NCBI GenBank assembly: GCA_021732415.1
Contig: JAKFVC010000007.1
Span: 1-39,181, forward strand
DNA: 39,181 nt
Reading direction: 5' to 3'
DNA from: Planctomycetaceae bacterium
GTDB lineage: Bacteria > Planctomycetota > Planctomycetia > Planctomycetales > Planctomycetaceae
How positions within the stretch are numbered: position 1 is the stretch's first letter; the number at the start of each line of letters is the position of its first letter. A program made the translations under genes and the position numbers. Shown here piece after piece: positions 6,805 to 32,884 of the stretch. Below the pieces are notes generated by a model. That model worked only from the letters and a program-made list of their open reading frames with translations. It was not told the origin of the DNA and did not search any database.

Positions 6805-7692
6805 TCACTCGCCGGCATTCGCAATCGGACTGACGTCCACCGACACCCGCATCGCGTGCTTTCCGCCGCCGGTAAACACGCCTTGGATCGGACAGACATC
6901 GCTATAGTCTCGACCCCAGCCGACAGTGACGTGACGCAAATGCGGGATCACATTATTGGTCGGATCGAGGTCCACCCAGCCCATCCCCGGGCAATAGATT
7001 GACAGCCACGCGTGGGAAGCATCGACCCCCACCAATCGGGGTTGCCCCGGCGGGGGATCGGTCATCAGGTAGCCGCTGACGTAGCGTGCGGCCAATCCCA
7101 GGCTCCGCAAGCATGTGATCTGCAGATGGGCAAAATCCTGGCAGACTCCGCAACGTCGCTGCATGACTTCTGCCGTCGAGGTCGTCACGGCCGTGGACGC
7201 CGGAACGTACTTGAATTCGGCATGAATACGGCTCATCAAATCCATCGCCGCATCGAGAATCGGCCGATTGGGCTGGAAGCTCGCCGCCGCATATTCGAGG
7301 GCTTGAGGCAGGTAATGCACATACCACGACTCGAAACAGAACTGGGCGGCCAACCGCATTTCCAGCGTGCCCGCCTCGGCCAGCTGGTCGCGGACAGTTT
7401 CCCAGGCAGGCGTCTGCCGCTGCGTGGTCGCGGAGTGCTGGATGACCGCCACTTTACTGCGGCCGGTGATCGACAGTTCTTTATGCGGCTCTTCAATGGA
7501 AAAATACCAGACTTCATTCCCGAATATATCGGTCCAGCGGCGCCGGACAACCGGTTCGGGGGAAATCTCCAACTCAAAATCGGCACACGACTGCCACGGC
7601 GTCGGTCGCGGTGTCAGATGAATCTGATTCTGGCAGAGGGCCACGGCATCCGAGTACGAATAGGTCGTCGTATGTCTGACAGAGTATTGCAT
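6805..7692 (-). CDS. Transglutaminase-like cysteine enzyme of a peptide-modification operon
   Basis: This is a 295-residue protein. Residues 1-85 are the beta-rich bacterial transglutaminase N-terminal domain (SVRHTTTYSY ... NQIHLTPRP). The core follows with a papain-like triad in the expected order: Cys184 in RRCGVCQDFAHL, His227 in DASHAW, and Asp243 in GWVDLDPTN. Family members catalyse acyl transfer or amide hydrolysis at Gln/Asn side chains, or act as peptidases. The gene starts 5 nt after the stop of the ATP-grasp/Alpha-E gene, so the two are very likely one transcript. Genomic-context work on Alpha-E domains places such a stand-alone transglutaminase in a predicted peptide synthesis/modification system. 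No signal peptide is seen, so a cytoplasmic site is likely. The substrate is unknown. Confidence 0.9.
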   Translation of the reverse strand: MQYSVRHTTTYSYSDAVALCQNQIHLTPRPTPWQSCADFELEISPEPVVRRRWTDIFGNEVWYFSIEEPHKELSITGRSKVAVIQHSATTQRQTPAWETVRDQLAEAGTLEMRLAAQFCFESWYVHYLPQALEYAAASFQPNRPILDAAMDLMSRIHAEFKYVPASTAVTTSTAEVMQRRCGVCQDFAHLQITCLRSLGLAARYVSGYLMTDPPPGQPRLVGVDASHAWLSIYCPGMGWVDLDPTNNVIPHLRHVTVGWGRDYSDVCPIQGVFTGGGKHAMRVSVDVSPIANAGE

Positions 7693-7697
7693 GAGCG

Positions 7698-10268
7698 CTA
7701 CTTTCTGTTGGCCGACACCAGCGTATCGAGGTGACGCGCGGTCGCCGTGTGTGTCAGGTAAGTATGCGTAATGCTGTCCGAAAGCGATCGCAAATCCAAC
7801 GCCACGTGCTCCAGGAAATCATCCAGCAACACGCGGTCTTCCAATCCATTTACTGAACAAAACGCCTCTACATCAACCAGTCGCAACGCGGCCTGCGCGG
7901 CCAGCATCAGTTTCTGTTCCGGGCTGCGGACGAACTCGCCCCGATCGCGACTGAGATTCTTGACGTGCTCCGCCAGCGCCACCAGTTGAAAACCGACCGC
8001 GCGAGGATTGGTCTCGTCGACCAACACCAGATCGAGTACCGGTGCCAACTGCAATGTGGTCAGGTAACGATAGCGGTAGGTCATCGAGCTATCGGCAATT
8101 TCGAGCATCGCTTCCAGTCGCGGCAGCAAGTCGGCTTGGGCATCGACCAGCAAGCCACGAATCAACCGCACGGTCTGCAACGCACGTTCGATGCGGCGAC
8201 CGATATCAAGGAACCGCCAGCCCGGACCACGCGTCATGCTGTCTGTACTAATACCACTAAACGCCGAGAGCAACATCAACAGATGATTCAGCGGCATCAG
8301 CGCTTCACCCAGATCAACCTCGACCGATTCATCGTCGCTGGTCTGTGGATGAAGCTCCAGCTGATTCACAATCCGCCAGCCGTCGACCGAGATGCGATCG
8401 CGCACGATCGACGCGGTCCGATTGGCATTGTGCAGAGTTTCCAGCAATCCCCCTTTGCGCTTGGGATCGTACAGAAATTCCCACACCGCCTCACGCAACT
8501 TGGGCCAGGCTTCGGGATCTTCTAAATCCAGGTCGGCGACTGGTGATTCCCAGGTGTCGTCCAACGCCACGAACAACATGTGCAGCTCGGCCAGTCCGGC
8601 GGGTTGCAGTTCACTCGTCATGCGGGCCACGACGCTGCGGACGTGACGCACCTTGGCTTCGGATCGCTCAATCAGCCGTCCGAGCCAGAAGAGATGATCG
8701 GCGGCCCGGCTGGGAAGGTCGTTGCCGGTGCGTCGCAGTTCCAGCGCTGTACTCAGTGGACGCAATAGTGACACCGATTCCACGGGCCGATCCGAGAGGA
8801 TCCACACATCCTTACTGCGCTGTCCCGCGGTCATCGACTCGGTCAGCATTTCCGCCCGAGGTGCGACTCGTGACAACCCGCCGGGCATGATCTGATAGCC
8901 CCCGTCGTGCGCGACTGCATAGGCGCGGAAGGTGACGTGCCACGGCTGCAATTCCGTGCCGTTCCAGATCGGGGCAGTCGACCCCGGAATCGGCTCCTGG
9001 GCAACAAACTGATTCGGACGAGCTCGCATTTCGGCCAGTAACTTCGCCTTGTCGTCAGCGGACAGCAACCATCCGGCGTGTGTCCGCACCTTACGTTGGC
9101 GGAAGGCCGGGCGAATGATCAGCTTGTCGAAGTTTTCTTCAACATACAGCCGTTGTTCGCGCTGACCGCACCACCAGGTTTGGGCTCCCAGCAATTTGAG
9201 GTCTTGCCCCAGCAGATGGCGGCAGATGGCCGGCAAGTACGGTTGCAGAATGGGAGCTTCCAGGTATCCGCTACCGAGCGCATTGGCGATCACGACCTGT
9301 CCGTCGCGCGCCGCTTGAACGAGACCCGGAATTCCCATAATCGAATCGGGGTTCAGCTCGAGAGGATCGCAATCCGCATCGACCATGCGCCGCAGGATGA
9401 CATCGACCGGCAGCAGTCCGCCTAAGGTCTTCAGGTAGACCCCGACCCCACGCACCGTGAGGTCGCCGCCTTCCACCAGCGCATAACCCAGATACCGGGC
9501 GAGGTACACGTCTTCGAAGTAGCGTGAACTGCTCGGCCCTGGTGTGAGCAAAACGACGCGGGGATTCTCGCGGTGCTGGCGCGCCAGATTCGCCAGCGTG
9601 TTCCGCAACGTGATGAAGAACGACGCCAGTCGCACGACGTTGGAGTTCTGAAAATCCTGCGGTAATGTGCGGGAGACAATGATCCGGTTCTCGACCGCAT
9701 AGCCGGCACCCGATGGGCCTTGCGTGCGATCTCCCAACACGGCCCAACTGCCGTCGGAACGCCGGGCCAACTGGGCCGCATACCAATGGAGGAACACTCC
9801 AGTAGGCGGCACGATGCCCGCACACGGGGGCAGATATCCCGGGTGTTGGAAGATCGCATGTGGCGGCAGCACACCGGATTTCAGGACCGTTTGCGGCCCA
9901 TAGATATCCGCGAGAAATTTGTCTAGCAACAGTGCCCGCTGCTGCACGGCTTCGGACAACGGCTCCCATTCCGATTCCGGCAACAGAATCGGCAACGGGT
10001 CCAGGTCCCAGGGACGTTCGAGATCCTGCGACGCACCGTAGACGTTATACGTCACTCCGTTTTCGCGCAGCAGGCGGCGGGCCTGCTCGGTGCGTTGAGT
10101 CAGGCCGTCGGCTCCCAATTCGTCCAAGCTCGGTACGAACTGGGCCCAAGCCGGACGAATGCCGCCGCCAGCCGACACCATTTCGTCATAGAACTGGTGG
10201 GACGGCTGATAAAGTGACGCGAACTCGCCGGTCGGGTGAGCACTCACCGTACCGGTGGTTAAACTCAT
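7698..10268 (-). CDS. Circularly permuted ATP-grasp ligase fused to tandem Alpha-E domain
   Basis: This is an 856-residue fusion. Residues about 35-490 match circularly permuted ATP-grasp type 2 proteins: GIRPAWAQFVPSLDELGADG near the start, NRIIVSRTLPQDF (194-206), LTPGPSSSRYFEDVYLARYL (241-260), NALGSGYLEAP, and the C-terminal PGGLSRVAP. Residues about 515-850 are an all-helical Alpha-E region with the two hallmark ER motifs, GRLIERSE (Glu534-Arg535) and GRRIERAL (Glu694-Arg695), so both tandem copies are present. ATP-grasp enzymes form amide or peptide bonds through an acyl-phosphate. The Alpha-E role is unknown but is tied by context to peptide synthesis with transglutaminases. In many genomes these two parts are separate genes; here they are one polypeptide. 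The start has AGGGAG about 11 nt upstream. Confidence 0.9.
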   Translation of the reverse strand: MSLTTGTVSAHPTGEFASLYQPSHQFYDEMVSAGGGIRPAWAQFVPSLDELGADGLTQRTEQARRLLRENGVTYNVYGASQDLERPWDLDPLPILLPESEWEPLSEAVQQRALLLDKFLADIYGPQTVLKSGVLPPHAIFQHPGYLPPCAGIVPPTGVFLHWYAAQLARRSDGSWAVLGDRTQGPSGAGYAVENRIIVSRTLPQDFQNSNVVRLASFFITLRNTLANLARQHRENPRVVLLTPGPSSSRYFEDVYLARYLGYALVEGGDLTVRGVGVYLKTLGGLLPVDVILRRMVDADCDPLELNPDSIMGIPGLVQAARDGQVVIANALGSGYLEAPILQPYLPAICRHLLGQDLKLLGAQTWWCGQREQRLYVEENFDKLIIRPAFRQRKVRTHAGWLLSADDKAKLLAEMRARPNQFVAQEPIPGSTAPIWNGTELQPWHVTFRAYAVAHDGGYQIMPGGLSRVAPRAEMLTESMTAGQRSKDVWILSDRPVESVSLLRPLSTALELRRTGNDLPSRAADHLFWLGRLIERSEAKVRHVRSVVARMTSELQPAGLAELHMLFVALDDTWESPVADLDLEDPEAWPKLREAVWEFLYDPKRKGGLLETLHNANRTASIVRDRISVDGWRIVNQLELHPQTSDDESVEVDLGEALMPLNHLLMLLSAFSGISTDSMTRGPGWRFLDIGRRIERALQTVRLIRGLLVDAQADLLPRLEAMLEIADSSMTYRYRYLTTLQLAPVLDLVLVDETNPRAVGFQLVALAEHVKNLSRDRGEFVRSPEQKLMLAAQAALRLVDVEAFCSVNGLEDRVLLDDFLEHVALDLRSLSDSITHTYLTHTATARHLDTLVSANRK

Positions 10269-10340
10269 TTTCGCTGCATCTCCCTATGACTTCGACGACC
10301 GATCGTGGTCTCCGTGGCCGATTCCGCTAGCGTTGGAATA

Positions 10341-10359
10341 CAGACGCTGGCAGCGTCTG
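10341..10359. repeat. Short hairpin repeat in operon gap
   Basis: CAGACGCTG and CAGCGTCTG flank one base, then comes CCACGGGGG. A diverged sibling, CGACGCTAGCCGCGTCG followed by GCCACGGGG, sits near 24447-24472. It lies in the 120-nt gap between two genes of the peptide-modification operon and could act as an intra-operon processing or attenuation hairpin. Confidence 0.6.
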
Positions 10360-10388
10360 CCACGGGGGTCCTATTTCTTCCTACATCG

Positions 10389-13300
10389 TCACGGACCATT
10401 CCCCGGCATGGCCGGATACACTGGCCGCCGCAGGTCCAACGTCAGCGGATAATCCGCATTGATTTCGACCGGCGGCACTGCCTGTGAACCTGGAGTATGC
10501 CCGATTGACGAGAATCTCGCTACCCGGCGGCTCTCTGCTACGTTGGCGTTCACTGGGAAGAACTCGAAGTTGAGCCCTCCCGGATGCGAAACATCCCACT
10601 TACATCCGCCAATGGACCGTTGATTCCAGGCGTCGATGAGATCAAATACCAGCGGTGCATGCGGGGGAATCGTCGGGTGCAGGCACGAGGGTGGCTGCCA
10701 GGCCCGGAACCTTACGGCACCGACATATTCGCCCTGGACTCCGGTCGCCCGCAGCGGGACCCGTCGTCCGTTGCAAGTGACGACGTGCCGCAGATCGGTC
10801 ATCCCCTTCACCTTGACTTGGACGCGTTCGACCGACGAATCGACGTACCGAGCCGTGCCGCCAGCCCCCGGTTCTTCACCCAGGACGTTCCACGGCTCGA
10901 CAGCTTGCCGAACTTCTAACGTCAGGCCCTTTTGCTCGATCTGGCCGATGAAAGGATAGCGGAACTCGAAGTGCGGGGCGAACCATTCACGATCAAACTC
11001 GAAGCCCGCCTCGGCCAGGTCCTCGAGAACCTCGCCGAAGTCTTGTGAGACGAAGTGCGGCAGCATGAACTTGTCGTGCAGCGACGTCCCCCAGCGTACA
11101 AGCGGTTGACGGTACGGTTTCTTCCAGAACCACGCCAGCATGGCCCGCACGAGCAACTGTTGAGTCAAGCTCATTCGTTCGTGCGGCGGCATTTCAAACC
11201 CGCGCATCTCGACCAGTCCCAGGCGACCGGTTGAACTGTCCGGGGAGTACAACTTGTCGATGCAGAACTCGGCACGATGCGTGTTGCCGGTCAAGTCGAC
11301 CAGCAGGTTGCGGAACAAGCGATCGACCAGCCACGGCGGGACAGAACCCGTCAATGGCACTTGCGAACACGCCAGCTCCAGTTCATAAACATTCTCGTTA
11401 CGGCCTTCGTCGGCGCGGGGGGCCTGACTCGTCGGACCGATGAACAGCCCCGAGAACAGGTACGAGAGCGACGGGCGATTGTTCCAATAACCCACCAGGC
11501 TGGCCAGCAAGTCGGGCCGTCGCAAGAACGGGCTGTCCTTGGGCGACGGTCCGCCGAGGACGATGTGATTACCGCCACCGGTGCCCGTGTGTTTGCCATC
11601 CAGCATGAACTTTTCGGTACACAACCGTGACTGACGGGCCTCTTCGTAGAGGATGCTGGTGTTGTGGACCAGTTCGCGCCAGTTGTTAGCCGGCTGCAGA
11701 TTGACTTCGATGACTCCGGGATCCGGGGTCACGCCAAACTGTTCGACACGGTAGTCGCGGGGCGGCGTATAGCCTTCAATGCGGACCGCCAACGACAACT
11801 GAGCGGCAGTCTCCTCGACTGCGGCGATCAGTTCGAGGTACTCTTCGATCAAGGCGACGGGAGGCATGAAGACGTGCAAGACGCCACCCCGTGCTTCGAC
11901 ACACAGCGCGGTGCGAATCGAGTTCACTGCCGATTCATTCAACCTGGGTGCCACGTCAGTCGTCGCGGCCGTCGCCTGGTAAGTCGTCGCGATCGGGGTC
12001 GTGGAGGTCGCGAGATCCGGTTCCATCACGGCAGCGGTTCCCCCCGCGAGGTCCGTGTCCTGCCCCAGTCCCAGACCGTCGCCGAAACCGAGCATGGCTT
12101 TGCTGGCCGCTTCCACTCCGGCGTTGGCCATCTGCGTAACCCAGCGCAGCGACTGGGCGACCGGCGGCTCACCCGTGCCGTAGGGATGGCCATTTCCGTT
12201 GCCATTGCCATTCCCGTTGGGATTCACGCTGTAGCTGTACGGATTAGGTCGATTTTCGCGATACGTTGCGGTGTGCAACTCGGGCCGGTCAGCCAGCGGA
12301 TCACGTTGGTGGATTTGAGGCGCATCTCCCGGAGCCACCCACGGCAACGAATCCAGCGGCAACCGATAGCCCATCGGCGAATCACCGGGAATCAAATACA
12401 TCCGCTCCTGACGCAGGAACCACGGACCACTTTTCCATGTGATATTAGTGGGCGTATCGGTCGCCGGCTTCAACGGCAGCACGAAACCCACGACCTCATT
12501 GAGCCCCTTCTCTAACAGCTTGGCCAGCCGTGTCCGCTCTTCGGGCTTCTTGAGGTTCGACTGCAAAGGATCCACATTGACCGGCAGCTTGCGCTCCTTC
12601 AGCAAGTGGAACCACGTATCTTCGTAGCCCGGCAGGATATGTTCCGTATTCACTTGCAACCGCTCGGCGAGGCGATTGATGAAGTTATGGGCATCGCCTG
12701 AATCGCAGCCATAATCTCGATCGTCCTGGGCGATCAGTTCTGGATTCTTCCAGATCTGTTGCTTGTCCTTCCGCCAGTAGCAGGTCAAAGCCCAGCGCGG
12801 CAGTGGTTCACCGGGATACCATTTGCCCTGGCCATAATGCAGCAACGGACTTGTTGCGAATTTGTCGGCCATCCGCAGGAACAGCGTCCCGGCCAGCTTC
12901 CGCTTGTTCTTGCCGAGGGCTCCCGTGTTCCACTCATCGCCATCGCGGTCGTCGATTGAAACAAACGTGGGCTCGCCACCCATCGTGAAGAGCTTCGGTC
13001 CCTTCGCCAGCTCGCGGTCGACTTCTTCGCCCAGATGTTCGATCGAAGTCCACTGCTCTTCCGTGTAAGGCTTCGTAACGCGCGGATCCTCATGAATGCG
13101 CTGGACCGACATGTCGAACCCGAATTTGCATTCGCAATCTTCGACGCCGCCGGTGATCGGGGCAGCCGATTCCGGATCCGGAGTCGCCGCCAATGGGATA
13201 TGACCTTCCCCAGCCAGCAGTCCCGAGGTCGGGTCGAGACCCACCCAGCCGGCACCCGGCAGAAACACTTCCGCCCAGGCATGCAGATCGGTGAAATCGG

Positions 13301-13967
13301 TGAGGGATCCCGTGGGGCCTTCAATCGGAGCCTGATCCGGCTTCAACTGGATCAGGTAACCCGACACAAACCGGGCCGCCAAACCCAAGTGCCGCACCAG
13401 TTGCACCAGCAACCAGGCCGAATCGCGGCACGAACCACTCTTCTTAGTCAGCGTTTCCTCGCCGGTCTGCACACCCGGCTCCAGCCGGATCACATAGCCG
13501 ACCGCTTCATGCACGTAGCGATTCAGATCGACGAGGAAGTTGACCGTGCCAACCGACTTATGAGGAGCCCCAGCGACGAACGCATCTAACTTCGGCGATG
13601 ATTTCTCCAAGGCCAAATACGGGTGCAGCTGCGTCTTGGCCGCTTCGGAGTACTCGAACGGGAAGTCGTTCGCCTCGGGTTCCAGAAAGAAATCGAACGG
13701 ATTGATCACGGTCATTTCCGCGACCACGTCGACTTCCACGACGAATTCGGACGTCTTTTCCGGGAAAACCAGGCGTGCCAGAAAATTGCCGTACGGGTCC
13801 TGCTGCCAGTTCAGGAAGTGCGATTCCGGCGTGATCTTGATCGAATAACTGGTAATGGGCGTCCGGCAATGCGGAGCCGGCCGCAAGCGGACGACCTGCG
13901 GCGAAACGGTAATGGTACGGTCGTAGTGGTACGCGGTGCGATGGTGCAAGGCCACACGAATGGTCAT
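10389..13967 (-). CDS. Transglutaminase fused to DUF2126 COOH-NH2 ligase
   Basis: This is a 1192-residue protein. Residues 1-90 form the transglutaminase N-terminal domain (HHRTAYHYDRTI ... VRLRPAPH). The core has Cys180 (KKSGSCRDSAW), His229 (TDLHAWAEV) and Asp245 (GWVGLDPTS), a complete triad. From about residue 280 onward it is DUF2126, with KLFTMGGEPTFVSIDDRDG (325-343) and, in the C-terminal half, GKHTGTGGGNHIVLGG (791-806) and EMRGFEMPPHERMS, residues typical of the glutamine-synthetase-like ligase fold. Family knowledge: this fusion is the predicted circularly permuted amidoligase partner of Alpha-E/ATP-grasp proteins. A low-complexity linker (about 575-680) includes an (Asn-Gly) run at 583-592. 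It is the first gene of the three-gene minus-strand operon. No clear Shine-Dalgarno precedes the ATG. Confidence 0.9.
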   Translation of the reverse strand: MTIRVALHHRTAYHYDRTITVSPQVVRLRPAPHCRTPITSYSIKITPESHFLNWQQDPYGNFLARLVFPEKTSEFVVEVDVVAEMTVINPFDFFLEPEANDFPFEYSEAAKTQLHPYLALEKSSPKLDAFVAGAPHKSVGTVNFLVDLNRYVHEAVGYVIRLEPGVQTGEETLTKKSGSCRDSAWLLVQLVRHLGLAARFVSGYLIQLKPDQAPIEGPTGSLTDFTDLHAWAEVFLPGAGWVGLDPTSGLLAGEGHIPLAATPDPESAAPITGGVEDCECKFGFDMSVQRIHEDPRVTKPYTEEQWTSIEHLGEEVDRELAKGPKLFTMGGEPTFVSIDDRDGDEWNTGALGKNKRKLAGTLFLRMADKFATSPLLHYGQGKWYPGEPLPRWALTCYWRKDKQQIWKNPELIAQDDRDYGCDSGDAHNFINRLAERLQVNTEHILPGYEDTWFHLLKERKLPVNVDPLQSNLKKPEERTRLAKLLEKGLNEVVGFVLPLKPATDTPTNITWKSGPWFLRQERMYLIPGDSPMGYRLPLDSLPWVAPGDAPQIHQRDPLADRPELHTATYRENRPNPYSYSVNPNGNGNGNGNGHPYGTGEPPVAQSLRWVTQMANAGVEAASKAMLGFGDGLGLGQDTDLAGGTAAVMEPDLATSTTPIATTYQATAATTDVAPRLNESAVNSIRTALCVEARGGVLHVFMPPVALIEEYLELIAAVEETAAQLSLAVRIEGYTPPRDYRVEQFGVTPDPGVIEVNLQPANNWRELVHNTSILYEEARQSRLCTEKFMLDGKHTGTGGGNHIVLGGPSPKDSPFLRRPDLLASLVGYWNNRPSLSYLFSGLFIGPTSQAPRADEGRNENVYELELACSQVPLTGSVPPWLVDRLFRNLLVDLTGNTHRAEFCIDKLYSPDSSTGRLGLVEMRGFEMPPHERMSLTQQLLVRAMLAWFWKKPYRQPLVRWGTSLHDKFMLPHFVSQDFGEVLEDLAEAGFEFDREWFAPHFEFRYPFIGQIEQKGLTLEVRQAVEPWNVLGEEPGAGGTARYVDSSVERVQVKVKGMTDLRHVVTCNGRRVPLRATGVQGEYVGAVRFRAWQPPSCLHPTIPPHAPLVFDLIDAWNQRSIGGCKWDVSHPGGLNFEFFPVNANVAESRRVARFSSIGHTPGSQAVPPVEINADYPLTLDLRRPVYPAMPGNGP

Positions 13968-14252: not shown

Positions 14253-14676
14253 CCACCGTAATATTCACCAACATCAAGTACAAAACGAGTCGTCGAGACA
14301 GTTCTAGCGATCTTCCCAATTGTGCTGGTGGGAAAACTTTCGCCAGTTTGCCGCGCGACTCGCAAGGCAATCATGACACATGATCGCCCGCTTGCCCACC
14401 ACTCGACAGCGTCCAATCAGAAAAGAACTTGCGTCAATAACTGATATCCGGCGCTGCCGCGACAGTCAGCAGCCACTGCCCATTTTGCATGCACGTGCAG
14501 GGTCTGTCAGGGCCGATTTCCGAATGATTATCTGGAAGCCCTTCTAAAGGCAACTGCTATGCCGCCGCAGAACGCCTACCTAAGGCGTGTTTGATCAATC
14601 TACCTACTATTCGCGGAGCAGAGTCACCAAAACACACTCGGAGCCGTGTTTGGCAAATCATCCCCCGGGAAAATTC

Positions 14677-24474: not shown

Positions 24475-27400
24475 TCACCTCTCCGCCGGTAATGGAACCT
24501 GACTCGGCCCCATCAAATACGCAATCAACTCGCGCACTTCTTCAATCTTCAAGTTCTGTAACATCCCCTCCGGCATGATCGATAACGGCGAAATCGTTCG
24601 ATCTTCAATTTCTGAATTCGGAATGACAACCTTTTCATTCACGGTTTGAATCGTCGTCGCGGCCTTGGTCTCGGCGACCACCAGGCCCGTGATCACGCGA
24701 CCGGAAACGGTCTCGATAATATGCATCTGAAAATCCTTGCCCACGGCGGCACTGGGATCAACGAGCGTCTGCAACAAATAATCGAGATTCGTCCGCTGCG
24801 AACCGGTAATGTCGGGACCAATGGCTCCCCCTGCATCGAAGAAGCGGTGGCAACTCGCACACGTCTTTTGAAAGATCGCCCGGCCGGCAGTCCGATCGGC
24901 CTTCACTAAAGATTCGGGAGTCAACCGCTTCTTAAAGTCGGCCACCAGCTTCGCCTTCTCGGCGGACGTGGTTCGCACTTCACCCCAGACCGCCTGCAGC
25001 CGTTCCTTGAGCTTCGCATCACCCACATTGTAGATCTGCCGCGCGGTATAAGCGGTCAACTCCTGCCGCGAAACCCGTCCTGCTTCAATTGCCTCAAGGA
25101 GGGCGCCGGCCCATGTGGGACGGGAGGCCAACGTCTGCACCGCATCCTGTCGAGCTGCCGCATCGAACGTCGGATATACTTTGAGAATCGCCATTGGCGT
25201 GCGCGCATCGTTATATTCTGCGAGCCCACGCAGTGCCGCGCGCCGGACCACGGGATCACTAATCAATAAGATTAAAAGAGGAGTCAGGTTCGGTGACTTC
25301 TTAGCAACGAGTGCTTGAATGGCTCGATTCCGCACTACGGCTTCAGCATCGTCATTGATCGTCACGCGACGCAAATTCGCCAGCGCCACCGGATCGTCAA
25401 AAATCAGCGCCAACTGCAACGACCGTTCGCGAATCGCCTCGCTGGAAGATCCCTGCAATTTCTCGTAGACCCGTGACCATCCCTCCGGCACGTCAACAGT
25501 CCGCCGCCCTTCGAGTCCTTCAATCACTCCCGCCAACAGTTCGGCGTGGTTACCATGATCAGCCTCTCCCAACTGCAAGGCGATCAATTCTAATCCGGGC
25601 TTCACATCGGCCAGCGAAGCCACACGCCGTCCGATATTCCGAGCAATCAGCGGGAATCGCAGGTTGCTGGTCAGTTCGACAAAGCGCGCCAAATCCTCAT
25701 TCACCAGCGGTTCAATGCCGTACCAGATCATGAGGGGCAAATTGTGGTCATTAACATCTCCCCCCCGGCTCATCAAAGACTCGGCGAGGAGCCAGCGATC
25801 CGACATTTTCAGCCGTTGCAGCATGCTCGCCAGATGCAGCCGCACATACGCCGAGCCCCCTTGCGCGGCCAGCTCGCAAAATCGAGACAGCGCGTCGGCC
25901 GAAGGACTACCACCTTCACAAAGCAACTGCACGGCCCAGCCGCGGACATATTCGTCGCTCTCATGCCCGAGTTGCTGAATCAGTAAGTCCGGTTTAAGTT
26001 GTCCGATGACGTGCAAGGCCCACAAAGCTCGCAATTTGCGAGGCACTTCCTTCTCGTCGTTGAACATGCTGAACAAACGCCGAGTCACCGCGGACATGTC
26101 GGCACCGCTCGCCGCACGTTCCTGCAACAACCGCCGCGCATGTTGCACATACCAATCGTTGCGATGCAGTTGCAGTTCCACGAGCGCCGCGTTATCCAGC
26201 GCAGCCAGATCAACCGGCTTCGTGACAGGTTTTCCATAGGAAATCTTATAGATCCGGCCCGTCTCGCGCCGCGTGTTCTTCACGCTATGACACTCGCCCG
26301 TATCAGACCAGTCACTGGCGAACACAGACCCATCCGGTCCGTACTTCAACGTCACGCCCATGTACCACGGATCTTTCGACCGCATCAAATCCTTACCATG
26401 CGATGCCGAATATCCCGAACCTTCTCGCTGCAGCAAATCGTTATTAATTCGCCGTCCGTGAATGTTGTTAGTGAACAACGTATTGCGATACTTCGCTGGC
26501 CAGTTGTCTCCGAGATACACCATCGTGCCGCAATGAGCATGCCCTCCCCCGGCAGCATCTTCCGCCACGGACCCCAAGCCCTCCTGCACGGACGCCTGGC
26601 CGACAAAATGCAGGTGATCGGCAATCGTGGGAATCCGCTGGTAAGCGTACTGGCTCGATTCACGATTACGCCACGGTTCATAGTGGGCCCCGTAAATCAC
26701 ATGGAAGAGATGCGGATTCACGCAGTTGCAGACAAACGCATCGCCGTAGTCATTCCAGTCAATCCCCCACGGGTTCGTTGTCCCATCGGCGTACGGCTCC
26801 CACACATGCCGCACGGGATGATAGCGATAGACGCCCCCGTCAAACCGAATCCGCTGCTCCTTGGGAGTCCCCGGCTTGCCCAGCAGCGACCAATTGGTCC
26901 GACCATGTGTTCCATACAACCAACCATCCGGCCCCCAAGCCAAAGCATTCGCCAGATTATGCGAATTCGCGTGATTGCCGAACCCATCCAGCAGCACTTC
27001 GGGTTCACTGTCGGGTTTGTCGTCACCATCGCGGTCCGGGATGAAATACAATGAGGGAGGCGAAACCACCCACGCTCCACCAAACCCGACTTCGATCCCG
27101 GTCACGTAATTCAGCTTGTCATAGAACACCGTTCGCTTGTCGAACTTACCGTCTCCATCGGTGTCGGCGAAAATCAGAATGCGGTCGCCCGGCTTCGTCC
27201 CGTGATGAGGATAGTTGTATGCCTCAGCGACCCACAGCCGGCCCCGATCATCGATGCAGAATCCGATCGGCTGCATGACGTCCGGTTCGCCGGCGAACAG
27301 CGAGACCTGAAATCCGTCCGGCACAACCATCGTCCGAGCCGCCTCAGCGGGAGGCAACGGCGCGTCGACCACCGGCTGCTTGCTATCCTGCGCGAACCCG

Positions 27401-27480
27401 ACCGTCAGCAAGCCCCCCACGAGCAGCAAGGTGGCCGCTCTCATCCACGCGCGCGATTGATAACTACGTGGTTTGTTCAT
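24475..27480 (-). CDS. PVC-type heme-binding propeller/HEAT protein (CxxCH)
   Basis: I prefer the ATG at 27480, giving about 1001 residues; 27516 is possible, while readings to 27669 start in repeats. The N-terminal signal is WMRAATLLLVGGLLTVGFAQ. The first half is a six-bladed propeller of the 'membrane-bound dehydrogenase' type: MVVPDGFQVSLFAGEPDVMQ, DRGRLWVAEAYNYP, RILIFADTDGDGKFD, NALAWGPDGWLYGTHG. The middle is helical with HEAT-like repeats (VRGWAVQLL, VRRAALRGLAEYND). The last 130 residues are the planctomycete heme-binding domain with CASCHRFF and a possible Met ligand in ISPLSIMPEG. Such proteins are expected in the periplasm. They may oxidise sugars or bind polysaccharide, but the reaction is unproven. 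A paralogue-like protein lies at 29297-32605. Confidence 0.9.
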   Translation of the reverse strand: MNKPRSYQSRAWMRAATLLLVGGLLTVGFAQDSKQPVVDAPLPPAEAARTMVVPDGFQVSLFAGEPDVMQPIGFCIDDRGRLWVAEAYNYPHHGTKPGDRILIFADTDGDGKFDKRTVFYDKLNYVTGIEVGFGGAWVVSPPSLYFIPDRDGDDKPDSEPEVLLDGFGNHANSHNLANALAWGPDGWLYGTHGRTNWSLLGKPGTPKEQRIRFDGGVYRYHPVRHVWEPYADGTTNPWGIDWNDYGDAFVCNCVNPHLFHVIYGAHYEPWRNRESSQYAYQRIPTIADHLHFVGQASVQEGLGSVAEDAAGGGHAHCGTMVYLGDNWPAKYRNTLFTNNIHGRRINNDLLQREGSGYSASHGKDLMRSKDPWYMGVTLKYGPDGSVFASDWSDTGECHSVKNTRRETGRIYKISYGKPVTKPVDLAALDNAALVELQLHRNDWYVQHARRLLQERAASGADMSAVTRRLFSMFNDEKEVPRKLRALWALHVIGQLKPDLLIQQLGHESDEYVRGWAVQLLCEGGSPSADALSRFCELAAQGGSAYVRLHLASMLQRLKMSDRWLLAESLMSRGGDVNDHNLPLMIWYGIEPLVNEDLARFVELTSNLRFPLIARNIGRRVASLADVKPGLELIALQLGEADHGNHAELLAGVIEGLEGRRTVDVPEGWSRVYEKLQGSSSEAIRERSLQLALIFDDPVALANLRRVTINDDAEAVVRNRAIQALVAKKSPNLTPLLILLISDPVVRRAALRGLAEYNDARTPMAILKVYPTFDAAARQDAVQTLASRPTWAGALLEAIEAGRVSRQELTAYTARQIYNVGDAKLKERLQAVWGEVRTTSAEKAKLVADFKKRLTPESLVKADRTAGRAIFQKTCASCHRFFDAGGAIGPDITGSQRTNLDYLLQTLVDPSAAVGKDFQMHIIETVSGRVITGLVVAETKAATTIQTVNEKVVIPNSEIEDRTISPLSIMPEGMLQNLKIEEVRELIAYLMGPSQVPLPAER

Positions 27481-27904
27481 GGCCGGGTTGAGCGAGATCC
27501 GATCAGCAGACGACATCTGAGAAATAGCGCCGCCTGAGGATATCAACATCGATTGATGTTTCAAAGCGTTGGCCGCAGGCCAACGTGTAGCCTGACTCTC
27601 CGAGTCGGGTCTTCTGAGGAGTACTCGACTCAGAAATTTTGACGGCGGTGATTCATCACCGCTTTCCAATCTGACGTTCAGACACGGGCGACTCAGTTCA
27701 TCCTCCAGGAAATTTCACCACGGAGACACGGAGAAAACAGAGGTTGCAGAAGAGGGAATTTTGGCCACAGAAGAAACACAGAAATGAGCAACCGAGTTCG
27801 TCTTCTGATTCTGTGTTTCTTCTGTGTCTTTCTGTGGCCAAAAAAAGATCCTACGAATCCGCCCTTCTCAGTCGGCTACTCCTCAGAAAACCCGACTCAG
27901 AGAG
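27481..27904. repeat. Mosaic of inverted repeats
   Basis: The outer copies of the 'gtagcctgactct' element lie at 27587-27633 and, inverted, 27871-27914. They enclose a 'ccacggagacacgg' hairpin, copy 2 (27717-27846, whose left arm has lost about 10 bp relative to its right arm). Smaller palindromes sit at 27568-27586 (CGTTGGCC/GGCCAACG) and 27645-27662 (GCGGTGAT/ATCACCGC). I see no gene here. Confidence 0.85.
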
Positions 27905-29218
27905 TCAGGCTACATCTGGCGGATCCGGCTGCGGAATCACCTGCCCGTGCGGATCCTGCTGCGGAGCCTCCAGCTCCTCCGAAATCTCCTGCTGCAGATT
28001 CGGACCGAGAAAGTGCTCCATGCGCGACGCCGGTGCGTGCAAGTGATCGCGCGGCAACTCGAAATGCTTTTCGAGGTACGCTTCCCACAGCCGGTGCGAA
28101 CGGACCAGTGATTTGGCTCCACCCCGTCCCGCATCGGTCAGAGCCAGACAGCCGTCACCGGCGTCGACAATTAAACCTCGGCTCTGCATCAGCGGAATCG
28201 CCAATCGGGCCAATAGCCCCCCGCCGGCAAACTGCACACATTTTTCCCGCTCCAGCCGCGTCTCCTGGCTGTCACGGCGACCACGCTCTTCGACGCGGTA
28301 CAGCACCGCGAGAATATCCTCCTTGATAATTCGAACCGTCCATTGCAGCTTGCGATACGCTTTGACCAGCAACCCATGCTGAGGAGCAAAAATCACAGCG
28401 ATCGTGAACAATCCGCCGGCCACGACCGACATCATCCCGGCCACGCTGGTGTTCCAGTACTCGGCCAGGAAATAGCCGATAATCGCCGACAGACATGCCG
28501 ACGCCACTGCCAGGACCTGCATCATCCACAGCCGATCGGTCAGCAAATGAGCGGTTGCCGGAGGCACGATCAGCATCGCAATGACCAGGATCGAACCGAC
28601 CGCTTCAAAACTGGCCACCGTCACCACGGCCACCATCGCCATTAACAGGTAATGGACCGTGATCGCCGAAATCCCCATCGCCGTCGCCAGCCCAGCGTCG
28701 AACGAGACAATTTTGAGCTCTTTCCACAGCAGCGTGACGAACAACACCGTCAAAGCGGCGACCGTGCTGAGCATAAAAATGGCTCGCGGAATCTCCATCC
28801 CCAGCCACGACACCGTATCCAGCGGCACAAACTCAATCAAACCATACAGCACGCAGCCGGGATCCAGATCCACCTGCGACGCGTACTGATTGAGCAAAAT
28901 CACCCCCAGCGCAAACAACGAGGTGAAGACCACCCCCATACTGGAGTCTTCCGGCACATTGCCGAAGTTGGCGAGCGCCTGCGTCAAGAACGCGGTGAGT
29001 ATCCCGACCGCGACCGCCCCGACGAAGACCTGCCAGCCCACCAGTTGCCCCGACCACAGCACGGCCACGACCGTCCCTGGCAGGACCGCATGGCTGATGG
29101 CATCACCGAGGAGACTCATCCGGCGCAGCACCATATAGCAGCCGAGGATCGCGCAAGCAGAATTGCACAGCACCCCGGCCACAATGGTCCAAAACGCAAG
29201 TAAATCTTCACGCCCCAC
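27905..29218 (-). CDS. Metal ABC permease (zinc/manganese type) fused to a DtxR/MntR-like regulator
   Basis: The GTG start at 29218 has AGGA upstream. The product is 437 residues. Residues 1-285 are an ABC-3 permease of the TroC/MntB/ZnuB kind: CAILGCYMVLRRMSLLGDAI, SHAVLPG, ANFGNVPEDSSMGVVFTSLF, SFEAVGSILVIAMLIVPPAT. Residues about 300-365 form a winged helix. Residues 366-430 match the DtxR/MntR metal-binding and dimerisation domain: LVRSHRLWEAYL (His375), SRMEHFLG (Glu401, His402) and QDPHGQVIPQ. The regulator part would face the cytoplasm. Family knowledge says the permease moves Mn, Zn or Fe with an ATPase and a binding protein, neither of which is adjacent. The last codons and stop lie inside a repeat copy. 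The fusion suggests direct metal sensing by the transporter. Confidence 0.9.
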   Translation of the reverse strand: MGREDLLAFWTIVAGVLCNSACAILGCYMVLRRMSLLGDAISHAVLPGTVVAVLWSGQLVGWQVFVGAVAVGILTAFLTQALANFGNVPEDSSMGVVFTSLFALGVILLNQYASQVDLDPGCVLYGLIEFVPLDTVSWLGMEIPRAIFMLSTVAALTVLFVTLLWKELKIVSFDAGLATAMGISAITVHYLLMAMVAVVTVASFEAVGSILVIAMLIVPPATAHLLTDRLWMMQVLAVASACLSAIIGYFLAEYWNTSVAGMMSVVAGGLFTIAVIFAPQHGLLVKAYRKLQWTVRIIKEDILAVLYRVEERGRRDSQETRLEREKCVQFAGGGLLARLAIPLMQSRGLIVDAGDGCLALTDAGRGGAKSLVRSHRLWEAYLEKHFELPRDHLHAPASRMEHFLGPNLQQEISEELEAPQQDPHGQVIPQPDPPDVA

Positions 29219-29296: not shown

Positions 29297-32200
29297 TCAA
29301 CGCAACGTCGCCAGGTATTCTATCACATCGCGAATTTCACTGAGCTTCAAGATCGGCGCCACCGGCGGCATCGCCGACTTCGCCGCCGTCCGCTCCTCAA
29401 TTTCCGCGAGTGGAATTACCACCGACTTGCCCTCGGGGGTGAACACGGTCACTTGCTTGGCATCTTCCGCCTTCAACACGCCCGACACCACGCGACCATC
29501 CGTCAGCACATAGGCCACCGAACCAAATCCCGGGGCCAGCTTGGCATTCGGATCGATCATCGATTCCAGGAAATGCTCCCGCGGCGACCGCATCGCCAAC
29601 TGCGACAAATCAGGCCCCGCCTCACCCCCCTGCCCCTGGATTTTGTGGCACCGGAAGCACTGAGCGGTCGCGTGACTGCGGAAAATCCGCTTGCCGTTTT
29701 CCGCATCACCGCCTACCAAAGCCGACCGGAAACGAGCCAGTGGATCACTCGCCGGCAGTTGTGCTTCGTACTTGTTGATCGCATCGTTTAGGACAGGCCC
29801 GCGAGCCCGGGCCGCTTCGATCACGTCAACCTGCAGTTCCGGCGGCACCTTATTCGCCCGCAGATCCTCCGTCGCACTCAGCAGAATGCGGTCCGCGGCG
29901 TTATTTTTCACCATCGCGAGCTGACTCAGCGCCCGCTGCTTTTCCACGATTGTCGCCGAGTCCTGCTTCCAAGCCGCCCCCAAGAGTTCAATCCCCTTTT
30001 TCGGGTCTTTGGCTGTGGTGACTTGTCGGGCTTCCGCACGCAATAACGGTTGAGCATCCTGCAGTGCGGCCTCCAGAATCTGCGGCAATCGAGCATCTTT
30101 CCTGGCCACCAGCAGATTGAGCGCCGCGACGCGCTGCGTCACATCTCGCTCTTTCTCACCGACCCATTTGAAAAACTCCTGATCGTCAATCGCGATATTC
30201 AGCCGCGTAATCAATTGAATGGCCGCAATCTGCAACGGGCCACTCGTCTGAGTCAAAATCGGCATCGCGAACTCATTGAGGACGGTTTGCACAATCGCCG
30301 GGTCGCGTTTCGACAACGGTCGCCAGAAGCCGTTGACGCGATCTCGCTGACTCGGTTCCGACCAATCCGCCAGCATTTGCAGGGCTTCCATCCGCATCGC
30401 GGGGATGACCTGAGCATTCAGCACGACGCGGGCCACCGCTCTAGCCTGATCGGCGTCTCCGATGCGAAAGTTGGCGTTCAGAACACGTCGCAAGAGGGGT
30501 TCGGTCGCCACGGCCGGATCGCCGTTCGTCAGCAACGCGGCAAGCTGCGGTGTTTCCGAATCGATCGGCAAGTCATTAATCGCCCGCGCCGCCTCAGTCA
30601 CAATCCAAAGATCCGTATCCTTCAAGAAGTGCGAAATGCCCGGATCCTGCATTCGTCGCAAGACCAACAACGCCGCCAATCGCACCGCCGAACTCTTGTC
30701 GGTTCGCAGTTCCCACAACTGAGCCCGATCCTTCAGATTCTTCAACGCGATGACGCCCGCATGTCGCAGATACGGGTCGGCATCCTCGTTTTCTCGAACC
30801 ATTTTCACAATCGCCGGGAACGCTGCCGAATAATGATTCAGCCCTAAAGTCTGCGCCGCAAAGAACCGCACCCGAGGCACCGGATCAGCGAGCAACTCGA
30901 CCAATTTTGGATCCCCTTGCTTCCAGCGCTGTTGCCCCATCACCTTCGCCACTTGCGCCCGGATTTCGGGATCAGAATCAGCCAGCAACGGCACCAATCC
31001 GGCGGCAATTTCAGGTTGCTCACCACGGGCTTGTGCTAACGCCCAGATCGCATGCAAACGAGCAAACAAGCTCGCATTTTCCTTGGCGATGTTCAGTAAT
31101 TGCGGGACCACTTCTTTGCCACGTTCCGCCAGGGCAAACTGGGACCGCTGGCGAACACGATTGTCAGGATGAGACAGCAGCGCCAACAATTCGTCCGTCG
31201 GACGCTGTTGAAATCCTTCGTGGAACAATTTCTTAACTTGCTGGACGACATCCGTCTTAATGATCTCCGGATCTTGAACGGTATAGACTCGCCCGCCCTT
31301 AGTAGGACCGGCCCAATCGAGACCCACGAAATCCGAGACGTACATCTTGCCGTCATATCCAAACTCAGCATCGGTCGCCATCAACGGCTTGAGAAAATCG
31401 GTGGTTTCTGTGATTTCAAAGCCCGCGCCCTGGGGTTTCACACCGATCGCTTCGACGCCACCGTTGCCGGTGAAGTTGCACATAAAGAAGTGCTGATTAT
31501 ATTGCGCAGGCAACCCGGTTCCGGGGTAGTAACAAAACCCGGACGGACCAGCCCCCAGCTTGCCGACGGGAGGCACGAGATAAGCCGGCTGGCCGGGATG
31601 AACCAGATGCCACAGCTTTTCGGCATGCCACGGACCAGTCAAATACGGGTCGGGAATCGTCTGGTAGGCCATGTTCCAGCCACTCTCGCCGCCTTCGACA
31701 ACATACACTAACCGTGAGTGATCACCTTTATCGCAATTATTATCGGCCGCAAACAGGTTGCCATAATCGTCAAATGCCAGTTCCTGCGGGTTGCGCAAGC
31801 CGCGATGGACGACCTCTAATTGCGAACCATCCGGGTAGCAGCGGAAGACGGCCCCGGTACGCGGTCCCGATAGCGTCGTTCCCTCTTGAGTCTGCACGTG
31901 GAAGCCGCGATCGCCGACCGAAAAATACAGCTTCCCGTCCGGTCCCCAGCACAGGCCATGCAGGTCGTGCCCGAGGAACCCGGCGTTGACGCCGAAGCCG
32001 GTCAGGAGCGGCTTACGGGTTTCCGCCACACCGTCATTGTCGGCATCCTTCAGCAGCCAGAGATTCGGAATACACGTGAAGTAGATGTTGCCGTCCTTCG
32101 CCATCACGCCGGCCGCCAGTCCGTCCAGCACTCCGTTGAAGCCGCCCGCAAATATCGTCGCCCGGTCGGCTCGGCCGTCGCCGTCGGTGTCGGTCAACTG

Positions 32201-32605
32201 CCGCACTTGGTCGGGATGCTTGGTAAACCACTCCATCCCCCCTTCGAACTTGCTCGCGTACTTTTCGAACATCTTCAGGCGGTCGTCGAGCGTCTTGATC
32301 TGCAGATCGTCCTCGAGCAAAAACGGTCGCGTCCGGTTTTCTTCAGTCCCGCGGTTAAAACGGTATTCCTCGGCGACATAGACCCGGTTTTGCTCATCGA
32401 GACCGATTGCGACGGGACTTCCCAACTGCGGATCGGTGGCGAAGACTTCGGCCTTCAAACCCATCGGCAGCCGAAACGCCGACATCTGCCGCGCCGCGTC
32501 CGCCTTGGATTTTTCGGCCTTCGGATCAGGTTCGACGCCCCGCAGCACACTGCCGCCGAGCAACAAGACACAACAACCTAACACTGCAAACCAGCGCACT
32601 TGCAT
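29297..32605 (-). CDS. PVC-type heme-binding propeller/HEAT protein (CxxCH), second
   Basis: I chose the ATG at 32605, with GAGGA eight bases upstream; a GTG five codons earlier is less likely. The product is 1102 residues with a signal peptide (FAVLGCCVLLLGGSVLRGVE). The propeller half shows FRLPMGLKAEVFATDPQLGS, LTDTDGDGRADRATIFAGGF and LHGLCWGPDGKLYFSVGDRG. The HEAT-like middle includes VRFFAAQTLGL and YLRHAGVIALKNL. The C-terminal heme-binding domain carries CFRCHKIQGQGGEAGPDLS and AKSAMPPVAPILKLSEI. It is the same overall build as the protein at 24475-27480 but clearly divergent, so this is an old duplication. It is expected in the periplasm, with an unproven redox role. It is divergently transcribed from the acyltransferase gene. 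Confidence 0.9.
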   Translation of the reverse strand: MQVRWFAVLGCCVLLLGGSVLRGVEPDPKAEKSKADAARQMSAFRLPMGLKAEVFATDPQLGSPVAIGLDEQNRVYVAEEYRFNRGTEENRTRPFLLEDDLQIKTLDDRLKMFEKYASKFEGGMEWFTKHPDQVRQLTDTDGDGRADRATIFAGGFNGVLDGLAAGVMAKDGNIYFTCIPNLWLLKDADNDGVAETRKPLLTGFGVNAGFLGHDLHGLCWGPDGKLYFSVGDRGFHVQTQEGTTLSGPRTGAVFRCYPDGSQLEVVHRGLRNPQELAFDDYGNLFAADNNCDKGDHSRLVYVVEGGESGWNMAYQTIPDPYLTGPWHAEKLWHLVHPGQPAYLVPPVGKLGAGPSGFCYYPGTGLPAQYNQHFFMCNFTGNGGVEAIGVKPQGAGFEITETTDFLKPLMATDAEFGYDGKMYVSDFVGLDWAGPTKGGRVYTVQDPEIIKTDVVQQVKKLFHEGFQQRPTDELLALLSHPDNRVRQRSQFALAERGKEVVPQLLNIAKENASLFARLHAIWALAQARGEQPEIAAGLVPLLADSDPEIRAQVAKVMGQQRWKQGDPKLVELLADPVPRVRFFAAQTLGLNHYSAAFPAIVKMVRENEDADPYLRHAGVIALKNLKDRAQLWELRTDKSSAVRLAALLVLRRMQDPGISHFLKDTDLWIVTEAARAINDLPIDSETPQLAALLTNGDPAVATEPLLRRVLNANFRIGDADQARAVARVVLNAQVIPAMRMEALQMLADWSEPSQRDRVNGFWRPLSKRDPAIVQTVLNEFAMPILTQTSGPLQIAAIQLITRLNIAIDDQEFFKWVGEKERDVTQRVAALNLLVARKDARLPQILEAALQDAQPLLRAEARQVTTAKDPKKGIELLGAAWKQDSATIVEKQRALSQLAMVKNNAADRILLSATEDLRANKVPPELQVDVIEAARARGPVLNDAINKYEAQLPASDPLARFRSALVGGDAENGKRIFRSHATAQCFRCHKIQGQGGEAGPDLSQLAMRSPREHFLESMIDPNAKLAPGFGSVAYVLTDGRVVSGVLKAEDAKQVTVFTPEGKSVVIPLAEIEERTAAKSAMPPVAPILKLSEIRDVIEYLATLR

Positions 32606-32613
32606 CACAGTTG

Positions 32614-32618
32614 TCCTC
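32614..32618 (-). promoter_or_regulatory. Shine-Dalgarno fixing the second heme protein start
   Basis: It reads GAGGA on the minus strand with an 8-nt spacer to the ATG at 32605, which favours this start over the GTG at 32620. Confidence 0.65.
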
Positions 32619-32884
32619 ACCCTGCTATTGCCGAATATTCAGCCGCCCGCCGCTTCACTCAGACGTGCCGCCTTGATTTTGAGAATAGGGATTGTACCGT
32701 CTGAAACGGTCGTTTCTTAGCCTGATCGAACGGATTGCTGTTGTCAGCGGTGGTGGCCGGTCCGGAAACTGAGTCGACGTAGAGTGAGAACATTCTTGCT
32801 CCCCTCGCCCTGGCCGGAAAAACGAACCGGGCGGGGAGAGGGGATCCGCGAATTGTCAATAACTCCTTATTTCCAGCTTGCCGT

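Follow-up and report, generated by a model that had tools for sequence, protein, structure and literature searches.

A planctomycete gene cluster as a candidate module of a two-module amide-ligase system, with a probable glutamine-synthetase-fold ligase and an apparent pseudo-ligase

What do two transglutaminase-like enzymes, an ATP-grasp protein, an Alpha-E domain and a DUF2126 domain do in one bacterial operon, and how many working ligases does such an operon hold? The locus studied here lies in a stretch of 39,181 nucleotides (nt) from Planctomycetaceae bacterium (GenBank assembly GCA_021732415.1, contig JAKFVC010000007.1, positions 1 to 39,181), analysed whole and called the window below. 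The assembly is 9.87 Mb in 350 contigs and 98% complete. Three minus-strand open reading frames (6805-7692, 7698-10268 and 10389-13967) are separated by gaps of 5 and 120 nt. In the order of transcription they encode a transglutaminase-DUF2126 protein of 1192 amino acids (aa), an ATP-grasp-Alpha-E protein (856 aa) and a transglutaminase (295 aa). Pfam finds Bact_transglu_N and Transglut_core in the short gene, CP_ATPgrasp_2/CP_ATPgrasp_1 and Alpha-E in the middle gene (fold families PF14403 and PF04174), and Bact_transglu_N, Transglut_core and DUF2126 (1305.8 bits) in the long gene. With the Alpha-E, CP_ATPgrasp, Transglut_core and DUF2126 domains all in adjacent co-directional genes, the locus belongs to a known predicted system: the Alpha-E / circularly permuted ATP-grasp / transglutaminase-DUF2126 peptide synthesis system, reportedly predicted by Iyer et al. 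in 2009.

10389-13967, minus strand: gene 1, transglutaminase-like domain (residues 6-246) fused to DUF2126, a probable glutamine-synthetase-fold amidoligase domain (residues 276-1180), 1192 aa; from the reading frame, Pfam, structure match and residue conservation
7698-10268, minus strand: gene 2, apparently degenerate circularly permuted ATP-grasp (GRASP1, residues ~1-500) fused to Alpha-E (residues 518-838), 856 aa; from Pfam and alignments
6805-7692, minus strand: gene 3, stand-alone transglutaminase-like protein, 295 aa, triad C184/H227/D243; from Pfam and alignment

Our reading, to which we give a probability of about 0.5, is that these genes form one module of a two-module amide-ligase system. 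DUF2126 would be a ligase of the glutamine synthetase (GS) fold, the ATP-grasp fused to Alpha-E a pseudo-ligase, the active ATP-grasp paralogue would be encoded elsewhere in the genome, and the system would act under nitrogen limitation. The locus would be half of such a system, with probably one working ligase, because the stand-alone paralogue lies off the contig and is present in all 34 genomes with the fusion. A preliminary description of this DNA had proposed a cytoplasmic system of three packed genes with intact catalytic motifs, in which two ligases would build amide bonds on a peptide or glutamate-like scaffold and the transglutaminases might trim or cross-link it. Its observations were confirmed and its interpretation is partly supported: the packing agrees with the reading-frame coordinates, no obvious signal peptides were seen by eye, and the set recurs in relatives. 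Its count of two ligases and its three-gene extent did not survive, as described below.

The evidence for a pseudo-ligase comes from aligning the ATP-grasps of the collected loci, 52 of the fused and 36 of the stand-alone type, sorted by best BLAST match. One further fused-type row shorter than 300 aa was dropped, and the counts are of distinct sequences (49 fused-type, 33 stand-alone). The Mg-binding role of E-x-N, the catalytic Lys and the Gly-rich loop are known from ATP-grasp enzymes generally. In the fungal ATP-grasp Cp1B, alanine at R139, D141, E163 or N165 abolishes or significantly attenuates activity (PMC12568646; this and the other papers given by PMC number are quoted from excerpts). 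The stand-alone type kept D, E, N, K, G, G and Y in 33/33 proteins, among them rows from Enterobacter, Acidithiobacillus, Caballeronia and Burkholderia; the same residues are present in the solved protein 3n6x. A complete E-x-N was found in none of the 49 fused-type proteins (E in 2/49, N in 0/49), Arg occupied the N position in 46/49, and the Gly-rich loop was variable and scrambled. In the window protein the D, E, N and K of the stand-alone paralogues are replaced by Q, G, R and R, and it reads RKVR with no GGYG loop; an independent hhalign profile alignment paired the same columns.

9726-9734, minus strand: lost Mg-binding E-x-N, G179-D-R181 in place of E-D-N, from alignments
9084-9113, minus strand: lost Lys and Gly-rich loop, R386 to R395 (RKVR) in place of K...GGYG, from alignments

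Judged by its sequence, with G-x-R for E-x-N, Arg for Lys and no GGYG, the window protein falls outside what is expected of an active ATP-grasp, and the fused ATP-grasp appears to be a pseudo-ligase that has lost its Mg-ATP catalytic residues. The preliminary description had named broken ATP sites in both ligases as a finding that would count against it. One of the two looks broken, since Q/G/R/R replace D/E/N/K and the GGYG loop is absent, while the DUF2126 site looks conserved; structure models were made for DUF2126 and Alpha-E, and the ATP-grasp loss was read from the alignment. In a midpoint-rooted tree the fused (52 tips) and stand-alone (36 tips) groups separated with no mixing, the root of the fused clade having low support (0.34). 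The fused family does not look like a decaying gene, since numerous alignment columns are invariant within it: dozens in 17 proteins from several phyla, including D90, E252, R293, Q424 and R448, and a conserved WWCG stretch that is its signature. No description of the split into intact and degenerate ATP-grasps was found in the literature searched, which did not include Iyer et al. 2009.

The ligase that probably does work at this locus is DUF2126. An AlphaFold model was built from 15 sequences and compared with known structures. Among the VIA-align matches listed, 50/50 were glutamine synthetases or ligases of the GS type, with Z falling from 13.3 to 10.6. The top one had 261 aligned residues at a root-mean-square deviation of 4.4 and spanned about residues 28-737 of the model. 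The first 12 of the listed Foldseek matches were also glutamine synthetases, at weak E-values of 0.32-0.77. A sequence search of the PDB gave no relative of DUF2126, just two chance matches at E 0.9. Conservation was counted over 50 other sequences, leaving out the window itself and two frames shorter than 700 aa: E332, E754, H801, R898, E920 and R922 are invariant in 50/50, and H793 and N800 vary once each. By eye, the motifs GGEPTF, PGVIEVN, GTGGGNH, NRPSLSY, HRAEF and LVEMRGF follow the GS order, their Escherichia coli GlnA counterparts being GPEPEFF, AGQNEVA, NGSGMHCH, NPTTNSY, SIRIP and RIEVRF. The model matches and the invariant residues are consistent with the carboxylate-amine (COOH-NH2) ligase that the preliminary description had proposed, and DUF2126 is probably a GS-fold ligase. 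The residues below were matched to GS by eye.

12972-12974, minus strand: E332 in GGEPTF, motif counterpart of the GS first-strand metal Glu, 50/50
11706-11708, minus strand: E754 in PGVIEVN, GS-like candidate metal ligand, 50/50
11565-11567, minus strand: H801 in GTGGGNH, GS-like candidate metal-binding His, 50/50
11202-11210, minus strand: E920-x-R922, GS-like candidate metal Glu and ATP/substrate Arg, 50/50 each

Both transglutaminases keep their Cys-His-Asp triads: the short protein has C184/H227/D243, the fusion C180/H229/D245. Alignment with relatives gave C, H and D in 51/51 rows each for the fused enzyme. For the stand-alone enzyme it gave C in 47/47, H in 46/47 (one gap) and D in 45/47 (one gap, one Cys). 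The two ER motifs of Alpha-E, E534-R535 and E694-R695, are invariant in 17/17 aligned fused proteins. The Alpha-E model is good and nearly all helical, with a predicted local distance difference test (pLDDT) score of 82.8. It gave no Foldseek match at E <= 0.001, where absence from the matches listed excludes nothing, and among the VIA-align matches listed were mixed helical proteins (best Z 10.9) and no convincing relative. The invariant residues of Alpha-E are mostly Arg, Glu, Trp and Gly and could form a binding site.

13233-13430, minus strand: span of the fused transglutaminase triad C180, H229, D245, 51/51 rows per residue
8664-8669, minus strand: first ER motif of Alpha-E, E534-R535, from alignment
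8184-8189, minus strand: second ER motif of Alpha-E, E694-R695, from alignment

The second module came into view in the gene neighbourhoods. We searched 59 genomes including the window's own; DUF2126 was found in 31, and stretches were taken around it in 29 of the other 30 (G005 was left out). DUF2126 adjoins the ATP-grasp-Alpha-E fusion in 26/29 relative loci, on the same strand in 26/26, and the misses are L054, L055 and L076. The fusion in turn adjoins the small transglutaminase in 23/29. Among the six misses, the contig ends inside the fusion in L051, L057 and L073, and no fusion lies in the stretch in L054, L055 and L076. The gene order recurs in Verrucomicrobia, Acidobacteria and Proteobacteria, so the three-gene grouping is not due to chance. 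A second ATP-grasp, of the stand-alone type, is present in the stretch in 14/29 loci, and in 14/14 of these a second stand-alone Alpha-E lies beside it. This pair lies upstream of DUF2126 in 10/14, giving the order ATP-grasp 2, Alpha-E 2, transglutaminase-DUF2126, ATP-grasp 1-Alpha-E 1, transglutaminase; in 4/14 it lies behind the small transglutaminase, on the other strand in three of those four. The extent of three genes proposed in the preliminary description is thus too short.

At the window locus the pair is missing. The genome contains one other ATP-grasp of the family, 517 aa with all motifs intact, on another contig (end of C19; L082:8627-10180). In all three congeners the second Alpha-E adjoins the stand-alone ATP-grasp; the pair lies behind the small transglutaminase in G001 (L091) and on other contigs in G002 and G003. 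Since the pair is off the locus in the window's own genome, G002 and G003, this genus has the set divided in part between two loci.

In other phyla, Granulicella (Acidobacteriota) has the window's three genes, Azospirillum a cytochrome gene inserted in the cluster, and an Acidithiobacillus locus DUF2126, a stand-alone ATP-grasp and Alpha-E with no fusion. The plasmid record of Azospirillum brasilense Sp7 contains DUF2126, the fusion and also a stand-alone paralogue. The pair-upstream order is annotated on an Enterobacter plasmid and found in Caballeronia (L095) with an inserted zinc metallopeptidase. That gene, at L095:8004-9065, encodes a zinc-ribbon and Peptidase_Mx protein on the strand opposite to the cluster. 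In L092 a 90 kb plasmid of Enterobacter roggenkampii carries all five genes of the cluster, flanked on each side by insertion sequences, and the cluster may therefore travel. Clustering of the flanking families showed none recurring in more than 11 of 53 partly overlapping loci. The largest group contains a DUF1501 protein, and the other recurring groups were without annotation. Ten proteins encoded in or next to the Proteobacterial clusters showed no recurrent function in Pfam scans; several flank frames were matchless and may be spurious.

If the fused protein is a pseudo-ligase, does it keep company with an intact enzyme? Across the 59 genomes, classified by score and frame length, the fused type was present in 34, and all 34 also had the stand-alone type; 8 had the stand-alone type only and 17 neither (Fisher p 3.9e-9), with one fragment and two weak matches scored as absent in the last class. 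G013 has a fused type with two internal stop codons. A phylum sample of 108 genomes contained the fused type in 13 (3 shared with the 59-genome set), of which 12 had a clear stand-alone type and one contig-end fragments only. The remainder of this sample included 7 genomes with the stand-alone type alone, one unclassified match and 7 genomes with weak matches only. Both types were found in 9 of the ten genomes or records behind the additional loci, with the stand-alone type split over two frames in two of the 9; the tenth, the Granulicella plasmid, had the fused type only, the plasmid being searched and not the chromosome. In the genomes examined the fused ATP-grasp is nearly always accompanied by its intact sister enzyme.

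The conditions under which the system acts are suggested by Burkholderia. In an ntrC mutant of B. cenocepacia, I35_5080-83 (DUF404/407, DUF403 and two transglutaminase genes) were down 8.2-, 9.4-, 9.4- and 6.0-fold (PMC5491218), and another B. cenocepacia strain (L096) has the order ATP-grasp 2, Alpha-E 2, transglutaminase, transglutaminase-DUF2126, fusion, transglutaminase. In Acidithiobacillus, ntrC and glnL are about 8 kb away from the locus, and an aliphatic amidase is nearby. An RpoN-type site is listed before a CP_ATPgrasp_1 gene in Bradyrhizobium (PMC13207237), and Anbu is reported to be up in nitrogen-limited Pseudomonas putida (PMC5666114). Because the homologous Burkholderia cluster needs NtrC, the system by analogy probably runs under nitrogen limitation. 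For the ATP-grasp of an Anbu operon, phosphate release from ATP has been reported (PMC6376114).

Put together, DUF2126 would use ATP to activate a carboxylate and join it to an amine, as the fold match and residues suggest. The two transglutaminase-like thiol enzymes, one of them tethered to DUF2126, would transfer or hydrolyse the amide, for which their intact triads would equip them. The pseudo-ligase fused to Alpha-E may be a scaffold, substrate-binding or regulatory subunit, and the intact stand-alone ATP-grasp, usually with its own Alpha-E, would add a second amide. The product is perhaps a glutamyl, peptidyl or polyamine amide. In a stronger form, which we find slightly harder to back than the two-module reading itself, the fused protein would be a phylum-spanning pseudo-ligase in which the Mg ligand Asn became Arg and the ATP loop a new surface. 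Fused to Alpha-E, it would be an obligate structural or regulatory partner of the intact paralogue and the GS-fold ligase, in a two-ligase assembly making an undescribed amide under nitrogen limitation.

Several points weigh against the two-module reading. The model of DUF2126 is of poor quality, with a mean pLDDT of 55.8. VIA-align takes its candidates from Foldseek and is hence a second look at the same list, and the motif correspondence with GS was assigned by eye; hhalign comparisons of DUF2126 with GlnA and YbdK of E. coli found no relation (Prob 1.1 and 0.3). The fused type still has Lys at the Lys position in 18/49 and D in 24/49, and loss of the canonical ATP-grasp residues is not proof of lost activity. 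No biochemistry on any DUF2126 or fused ATP-grasp was found in the literature searched. A second Alpha-E was not found in the window's own genome, where the contig stops 147 bases past the stand-alone ATP-grasp gene. The 59-genome count sorts the paralogues by score and frame length, not by motif. The fused type occurs without a DUF2126 match in G024 (97% complete) and G031 (99%), both with the two ATP-grasp types, showing that the GS-type ligase need not accompany the fusion and that the pseudo-ligase may also work without it; conversely, DUF2126 occurs without the fusion in G027 and Acidithiobacillus. Finally, no sigma-54 site (<=2 mismatches) was found directly upstream of the window operon, and the window's 23 sigma-54 matches compare with a chance mean of 19.3 (23/100 shuffles reach 23).

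Other explanations have to be weighed against these data. The constraint on the fused family, with dozens of invariant columns in 17 proteins and the WWCG signature, would also suit a fused ATP-grasp that uses non-canonical metal and ATP ligands and, with an active DUF2126, builds a peptide-like amide; the 0/49 for a complete E-x-N, the scrambled Gly-rich loop and the effect of the alanine changes in Cp1B (PMC12568646) make this unlikely. A net catabolic use is a doubtful but serious contender: ammonia would be released by the thiol enzymes acting as amidases on transient, ligase-made glutamyl amides, as in the degradation of gamma-glutamylated amines. It would account for the NtrC dependence, shared in the same regulon with urease, urea and amine genes (PMC5491218), for the co-occurrence with urea domains in marine metagenomes (PMC3597751) and for the amidases annotated near two loci. 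However, all the nitrogen links come from other phyla, and no pathway partner is seen because no flanking family exceeds 11 of the 53 loci. ATP-grasp, Alpha-E and transglutaminase are common to Anbu operons (PMC6376114, PMC5666114), which raises protein tagging and degradation, in which ligases would attach a tag for a proteasome-like peptidase to remove. We consider this improbable here: PF00227 had 0 matches in the window genome (98% complete) versus 10/14 control genomes, and none of the four stretches that came with annotation lists an Anbu gene, the PLSDB annotation being incomplete. The Anbu link was rejected for the window genome on the missing PF00227 match.

Graspetides are ribosomally synthesized and post-translationally modified peptides (RiPPs) modified by ATP-grasp ligases, as the start of one abstract also has it, and a RiPP-like modification cluster would have a small precursor gene nearby. 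We scanned for short frames in the gaps and 700 bases on each side, leaving out the near-duplicate loci L033, L035, L036, L058 and L060. By eye, the 14 largest conserved groups looked like ends of known genes and their antisense or out-of-frame shadows, which makes this explanation very improbable. A small precursor peptide was rejected as a candidate, the upstream frames of the window and L033 showing no obvious common small gene by eye.

Besides the two-module reading and its rivals, the surroundings of the operon deserve a short description. The flanking MFS transporter and GNVR protein were rejected as system members since they recur in L032/L060 (one congener) alone, and the PQQ propeller gene since it recurs in L033/L063 (one congener) and L041 only. 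Positions 14273-14574, upstream of the operon, hold no convincing gene; they are 86% identical over about 300 bases to congener locus L033, and no common protein frame was seen. Rfam and tRNA scans gave no matches. The gene at 27905-29218 (minus strand) joins an ABC-3 metal permease (PF00950) to the C-terminal domain of an iron-dependent repressor (PF02742), a layout like that of the chlamydial permease-repressor fusion YtgCR. This gene is flanked by two large DUF7133 / HEAT / cytochrome c proteins at 24475-27669 and 29297-32620 (minus strand).

As far as the literature searched shows, no product has been assigned to this widespread gene set. The distinction between a predicted inactive and a predicted active ATP-grasp, together with DUF2126 as a likely GS-type ligase, can guide which proteins to combine in an assay, and a reconstitution from the window's three genes alone would probably be without ATP-grasp activity.

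How does the locus compare with known systems? Glutathionylspermidine synthetase (Gss) and the peptide-spermidine ligases YgiC/YjfC are circularly permuted ATP-grasps. E. coli YgiC (E-N-N) and Gss (E-Y-N) have the E-x-N motif, as in the stand-alone paralogue, whereas it is absent from the window's fused protein. The hhalign comparison of the stand-alone ATP-grasp with YgiC was not significant (Prob 0.3); its 25 columns lie on the E-x-N motif. The rlo operon of Pseudomonas aeruginosa likewise combines an ATP-grasp and a transglutaminase-domain protein, but its ATP-grasp is 24% identical to RimK, its transglutaminase is membrane-bound and inactive, and it includes a secreted protease (PMC12239564). 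The Anbu operon shares ATP-grasp, Alpha-E and transglutaminase; in the excerpts it is described as four genes including Anbu, with no DUF2126 (PMC6376114, PMC5666114), while the window genome has no PF00227 match. I35_5080-83 of B. cenocepacia, in the NtrC/sigma-54 regulon, shares the ATP-grasp, Alpha-E, transglutaminase and large transglutaminase protein (PMC5491218). There, six genes lie together with an extra transglutaminase, and NtrC control is known from Burkholderia, not from planctomycetes. The predicted system of the Iyer type has the same domains and, in several phyla, the same gene order; in the window, by contrast, the locus holds an apparently degenerate ATP-grasp, and the intact one is not linked to it.

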